DNA from: Gammaproteobacteria bacterium
GTDB taxonomy: Bacteria; Pseudomonadota; Gammaproteobacteria; Arenicellales; JAJDZL01
NCBI GenBank assembly: GCA_022824665.1
Contig: JAJDZL010000132.1
Coordinates: forward strand, 1 to 36,022
DNA length: 36,022 nt
Reading direction: 5' to 3'
Made by a program: the position numbers and the translations under genes. Position 1 is the stretch's first letter. Each line of letters starts with the position of its first letter. Shown here piece after piece: positions 1 through 602 of this stretch. The notes under the pieces were generated by a model, which did not search any database, had not been told where the DNA came from, and worked only from the letters and a program-made list of their open reading frames with translations.

Positions 1-1
1 A

Positions 2-265
2 GAGTTCCCGGACGATGAAACAATGAAAGCGATTGCGAAGAAATGGAGTATGTTGACCAGGGAGCAAATGATGGAGAGTTGCCGGCAGGAAGGTCGGCAG
101 GAAGGCTACGAGGAAAGCTTTCAGGAAGGCTACGCCAACGCCAGACAAGATGAAGTTGAACGGCTGGCAAACAAAGGCCTGAGTGATTCACAAATTAGTG
201 AATTCACTGATCTGACATTGGACGAGATCAAACAGATGAAGAATTGGGACAATTCAACCGGGTAG
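2..265 (+). CDS. Rpn-family recombination-promoting nuclease/putative transposase, C-terminal end (5' part outside window)
   Basis: The reading frame is already open at the first bases and runs ...EFPDDETMKAIAKKW, so this is the 3' end of a longer gene that starts before the window. What is visible is the Rpn C-terminal tail: a helix with repeated Q/E-E-G motifs (RQEGRQEGYEE, residues about 20-32 from the ATG at 23), then a small helical unit reading LANKGLSDSQISEF and ending LTLDEIKQMK. That ending is typical of Rpn/PD-(D/E)XK proteins. The nuclease domain itself cannot be seen, so activity cannot be judged. The same segment recurs 352 bases downstream. An internal ATG at 71 has a strong ribosome binding site, which matches the known production of a C-terminal inhibitor from inside rpn genes. 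Family assignment rests on the tail pattern only. Confidence 0.6.
   Translation, partial: EFPDDETMKAIAKKWSMLTREQMMESCRQEGRQEGYEESFQEGYANARQDEVERLANKGLSDSQISEFTDLTLDEIKQMKNWDNSTG
59..73 (+). promoter_or_regulatory. Internal ribosome binding site and start (AGGGAG-N6-ATG) in the Rpn gene
   Basis: AGGGAG lies at 59-64, six bases before an ATG at 71 that is in frame with the Rpn tail. Use of this start would give a 64-residue protein beginning MESCRQEG. A second ATG at 68 is too close to the SD to be preferred. The same arrangement is kept in the downstream copy at 411-425. In E. coli, Rpn C-terminal small proteins are made from such internal starts and inhibit the full-length nuclease; that this happens here is inference. 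Confidence 0.5.
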
Positions 266-302
266 TTCCTTTGTGCGATATAGCGTATGAGGTTCCGAAG
301 CG

Positions 303-602
303 GTGAGACTTGACCACGGGCTGGTTGACATAATGCAAAAGACAATACAGACAGAGTTCCCGGACGCTGAGACAATGAAAGCGATTGCGAAGGAATGGGA
401 TATGTTGACCAGGGAGAATATCATGGAGAGTTGCCGGCAGGAAGGCTTTCAGGAAGGCTACGAGGAAGGTTTGGAGGAAAGCTACGCCAACGCCAGACAA
501 GTTGAAGTTGAACGACTGGCAAGCAAGGGTCTGAGTGATTCACAGATCAGTGAATTCACTGGTCTGACATTGGATGAGATCAGGCAGATGAAACGAGGTT
601 AG
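303..602 (+). CDS. Free-standing duplicate of the Rpn C-terminal region (truncated copy or stand-alone inhibitor)
   Basis: From about base 354 this gene repeats the tail of the preceding gene, with the same EFPD..ETMKAIAK start, MESCRQEG helix and a GLSDSQISEFTGLTLDEIRQMK ending. The sequence upstream has an in-frame TGA at 288-290, so no nuclease domain can precede it. The longest frame opens with GTG at 303 (99 residues). A better-supported start is ATG 423, six bases after AGGGAG (411-416), giving 59 residues. The copies differ by substitutions and by small rearrangement of the EG repeats, yet the frame is intact, which argues against a long-dead fragment. It is either a decaying partial duplication or a separate gene for the C-terminal dimerisation/inhibitor part of an Rpn system. 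Confidence 0.55.
   Translation: MRLDHGLVDIMQKTIQTEFPDAETMKAIAKEWDMLTRENIMESCRQEGFQEGYEEGLEESYANARQVEVERLASKGLSDSQISEFTGLTLDEIRQMKRG
411..425 (+). promoter_or_regulatory. Internal ribosome binding site and start (AGGGAG-N6-ATG) in the truncated Rpn copy
   Basis: AGGGAG at 411-416 precedes ATG 423 by six bases, exactly as in the upstream copy at 59-73. It is the best SD/start pair in this gene and would yield a 59-residue protein starting MESCRQEG. The GTG at 303 has no comparable SD. Confidence 0.5.

Follow-up and report, generated by a model that had tools for sequence, protein, structure and literature searches.

A probable free-standing rpnS gene formed by tandem duplication of an Rpn C-terminal tail in an Arenicellales contig

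At the start of an Arenicellales contig, a sequence encoding an Rpn C-terminal tail occurs twice in tandem, and the second copy is probably a free-standing rpnS gene, copied in tandem either from the 3' end of rpn or from a free tail that already existed. Rpn proteins are bacterial DNA-cutting defence proteins that carry a self-inhibitor part. Both copies are open and retain the same internal start site, the tail is constrained and, by sequence comparison, homologous to RpnAS, and the arrangement recurs within the genus. The window, meaning the whole stretch of 36,022 bases analysed here, is the entire contig C198 of a 2.6-Mb, 87%-complete Arenicellales bin.

The duplicated tail and its internal start

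The features of the repeat are listed in Table 1. The two copies, each of 240 nt and spaced 352 nt apart, give a self-BLAST E-value of 2e-86, and the repeat is therefore not due to chance. Copy 2 lies in a different frame from copy 1, open from position 291 and with GTG 303 as an alternative upstream start. The original prediction, that an Rpn tail is duplicated as a separate intact frame, is thus borne out.

Table 1 Features of the tandem Rpn tails (positions in the window)
Feature	Position	Strand	Remarks
Direct repeat, first copy	1..240	+	88% identity to 353-592, no indel
Copy 1, Rpn C-terminal tail	2..265	+	Open from contig edge; stop TAG 263-265
AGGGAG, Shine-Dalgarno-like, copy 1	59..64	+	5' of ATG 71 (also ATG 68); -7.4 kcal/mol against anti-SD
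Copy 1 RpnS-like frame (MESCRQEG...)	71..265	+	64 aa from internal Met
Copy 1 four-residue repeats, n=4 (RQEG RQEG YEES FQEG)	83..130	+	From translation; repeat type as in PMC10327210
Copy 2, free-standing frame	303..602	+	99 aa from GTG 303; stop TAG 600-602; TIGR01784 positions 185-272
Direct repeat, second copy	353..592	+	From self-comparison
AGGGAG, Shine-Dalgarno-like, copy 2	411..416	+	5' of ATG 423; -8.2 kcal/mol, best among all starts of the frame
Copy 2 RpnS-like frame	423..602	+	59 aa from internal Met
Copy 2 four-residue repeats, n=4 (RQEG FQEG YEEG LEES)	435..482	+	From translation

Both copies have AGGGAG-N6-ATG, with the ATG at 71 and 423. The predicted Shine-Dalgarno (SD) pairing at these two internal Met codons is much stronger than at 202 other internal ATGs in rpn genes of the genus (mean -3.2, sd 2.4), and an equally good SD was found in only 6% of synonymous shuffles. 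The earlier claim that the motif is kept before the same Met therefore holds, and the SD is the strongest of its frame.

Four-residue repeats are a hallmark of RpnS (PMC10327210). The two copies have the same number of repeats, with several repeat residues differing between them. In both, the repeats start at about residue 5 from Met 71 or Met 423, against the 8-20 residues after the Met of the RpnS criterion. Both frames match only the last 66-88 positions of the NCBIfam family TIGR01784 (Rpn nuclease/putative transposase), with E-values of 4e-7 and 4e-8, both below the curated cut-off. A tail profile built from 18 tails of the genus and the window matches RpnAS (PDB 7TH0 chain A) with an E-value of 4.7e-5, which supports the proposed RpnS-type identity; judged by sequence, the window tails and E. 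coli RpnS are homologues. The AlphaFold2 model of copy 2 has helices at residues 54-74, 79-86 and 90-98 (pLDDT about 83), a predicted layout of one long and two short helices like that of RpnS. A Foldseek search with this model gave no significant match and did not recover 7TH0. The tail profile also matches five stretches of PDB 8vd6 chain A, named CAP REPEAT (E 2e-18).

Base 1 of the contig falls within copy 1, and any nuclease domain 5' of it is therefore not visible. The description of copy 1 as the tail of an Rpn gene stands as regards its Rpn C-terminal type; that it belongs to a gene is something we infer, because the contig begins at base 1. A complete rpn gene may end here, or copy 1 may be one more free tail. 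The missing nuclease domain was sought in the bin using TIGR01784, PF04754, DNA overlap and PF12784 (a profile with no match in any control genome), and no fitting contig end was found. Three other PF04754 genes are present in the bin, all located elsewhere. Further Rpn tails lie at contig ends in the window's bin (C209) and in another bin, G001 (C56 and C28), probably because such repeats break assemblies. The contig-end tails of the two bins are at L084 1-229, L085 3562-3729 and L088 4543-4719.

A promoter scan found no promoter-like site 5' of copy 2. The remaining ORFs of the contig, recognised by eye, include pcnB, trmD, ffh, dnaK, recN and others, which we take to be ordinary housekeeping DNA; for this reason the window lacks the appearance of a defence island.

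Free tails in E. coli and in the genus

According to Zhong et al., initiation at an internal start in E. coli yields RpnS, which blocks RpnL; additional free rpnS copies sit downstream of rpnE (as ypaA) and rpnC, and RpnES from ypaA is detected as a protein (PMC10327210). The proposed free-standing arrangement agrees with these published genes, and since they are already described downstream of rpn, the arrangement in the window is already known in kind. The closest parallel is rpnE/ypaA, where sequence comparison shows, as in the window, a free tail with an internal SD and Met and four-residue repeats; there the tail lies directly 3' of rpn and is made as protein (PMC10327210). It differs in that copy 2 of the window has at least 23 codons 5' of the Met, belongs to Arenicellales, and has no parent gene in view, any such gene lying off the contig. 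The rpnC/rpnCS pair is likened by description: some strains have a second rpnS copy 3' of the full-length gene (PMC10327210). RpnAS has a homologous tail and the three-helix layout (in the window, from the model), but is an intragenic product of rpnA and not of a separate gene.

A survey of relatives for the tandem copy, using a frame-blind nucleotide search of all fetched full-gene loci, found extra tails at nine loci of the genus, one to three at each and downstream of rpn at all nine, open in several. A full rpn gene followed by free tails is present in three congeners, at L076 (two tails), L083 (three, one partly masked), L080, L082, L068, L055 and L069; L058 and L062 have free-tail remnants, and L070 has two tails behind a frameshifted gene. 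Apart from these nine loci, L050 is a tandem pair of whole genes. One congener is the Arenicellales MAG OY282380.1. The 4.4-Mb genome G002 contains 42 Rpn-family matches, and the congeners G004 and G005 none. The closed genome G002 also encodes four full-length Rpn proteins (L051, L054, L060 and L067) that are almost identical to one another, their main difference being how many four-residue repeats they have.

A search for close relatives of the window tail, covering 109 genomes from the order and 369 from the class, found them in the same genus only; the other matches were distant Rpn proteins. A scan of genome contigs with the window tail gave no match. A class-wide TIGR01784 survey of 184 genomes, based on coordinates only, found lone tails and no evident full gene followed by at least two free tails.

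Repeat numbers and the origin of free tails

In 10 of the 11 usable genus pairs, free and parent tails differ in length by a multiple of 12 nt and in repeat number. The same is seen in E. coli, where 14 rpnE loci with a free copy (L106-L119) provide 11 distinct pairs, none with equal repeat number; in K-12 the two are exactly one 12-nt unit apart. Chance pairing in E. coli is expected to give 0.9 matches (P 0.35), and the E. coli mismatch is therefore no proof of selection. Selection for mismatch was accordingly rejected for E. coli, as the mismatch is not beyond chance pairing.

The repeat numbers bear on a different origin for copy 2, namely that a new tail recombined into rpn ahead of the old one, and that the orphaned old tail serves either as protection from the nuclease in its earlier form or as a spare for that form. 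Polymorphic toxins likewise leave orphan tails. The downstream position of every free tail and the mismatches just described are as this origin would have them. In addition, one E. coli strain (L120) has no free copy, and its rpnE ends in a C-terminus of the free-copy type. The free tails cluster with full genes of their own subfamily, sometimes closer to a paralogue at another locus (the L068 tail with L064, and the L055 tail with L075). However, these observations are also explained by plain tandem duplication and rapid slippage of the repeats thereafter, repeat number already varies between near-identical full genes (the L050 pair and the four genes of G002), the E. coli mismatch is within chance, and the two window copies share one repeat number. 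We therefore regard displacement as unlikely.

Less likely still is a functionless, decaying tandem duplication caught while still open, which the original prediction had named as its alternative. The window copies differ at 28 of 237 bases, distributed 7/7/14 over the codon positions, a third-position excess. In the tail, the comparison of copies gives a dN/dS of 0.24 (95% interval 0.09-0.63; dS 0.36, dN 0.087), and 5' of the Met, where sites are few, 1.2. A constrained copy 1 with a drifting copy 2 would give a pair dN/dS near 0.6, at the edge of the interval. A neutral pair of the same divergence was still stop-free in 25% of simulations, and the absence of stops alone is weak evidence against decay.

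In the genus, the copied unit often extends into the nuclease domain, and this portion carries frameshifts or stops next to a tail that is still open. Counting breaks common to several units once, and with loci initially picked by profile matches and so biased towards recognisable tails, there are 10 frame breaks in 555 upstream codons against 3 in 918 tail codons (p 0.007). The unit 5' of the tails is decaying, and free tails are themselves broken at L058, L062 and L069. Against decay of the tails as such, the breaks are concentrated 5' of them, open tails have lengthened or shortened, on balance, by multiples of 12 nt, and the start site is kept. The dN/dS of free tail against parent is 0.2-0.4 at most loci and up to 0.62, with upper bounds of 0.42 in L080 and 0.45 in L078/L079. 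The tail in the window thus looks constrained rather than decaying.

An assembly artefact is very improbable: the repeat lies at a contig edge, as do other Rpn tails, but its copies differ with a third-position excess and the same layout is found within a closed 4.4-Mb genome (L076, L070).

A possible role for free rpnS genes

We return to copy 2 as a free-standing rpnS gene. As the internal SD and start codon are kept, an RpnS-type three-helix protein could be made from it alone. If translated, this small protein would pair through its first, repeat-bearing helix with an Rpn that shares its type and number of repeats, and the pairing would keep the nuclease inactive. A copy with the matching repeat number would add inhibitor, and one with another number would guard against a nuclease version with a different number of repeats, or be a relic of one.

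It had been proposed that a second copy raises the dose of inhibitor. Zhong et al. found that one repeat added to only one partner abolishes inhibition (PMC10327210). Inhibition therefore needs equal repeat numbers, and since these rarely match between free copies and parents in congeners and E. coli, a dose effect is doubtful as a general rule. Free copies are perhaps not simply extra inhibitor; they may act on versions with other repeat numbers, or may be tails that were displaced. A speculative extension, which we hold to be improbable as it stands, is that the free Rpn tails behind a nuclease gene make up a small array of differing lengths, a store of inhibitors that do not match the nuclease, would immunise against other repeat versions, whether the cell's own paralogues or incoming ones, and could recombine into the parent and so switch its specificity.

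The free-rpnS arrangement is here extended from E. coli to Arenicellales, where a locus can hold as many as three free copies. Since published data indicate that inhibition needs equal repeats, and free copies in E. coli and in this genus rarely match their parent, YpaA-type proteins may have targets other than the parent nuclease.
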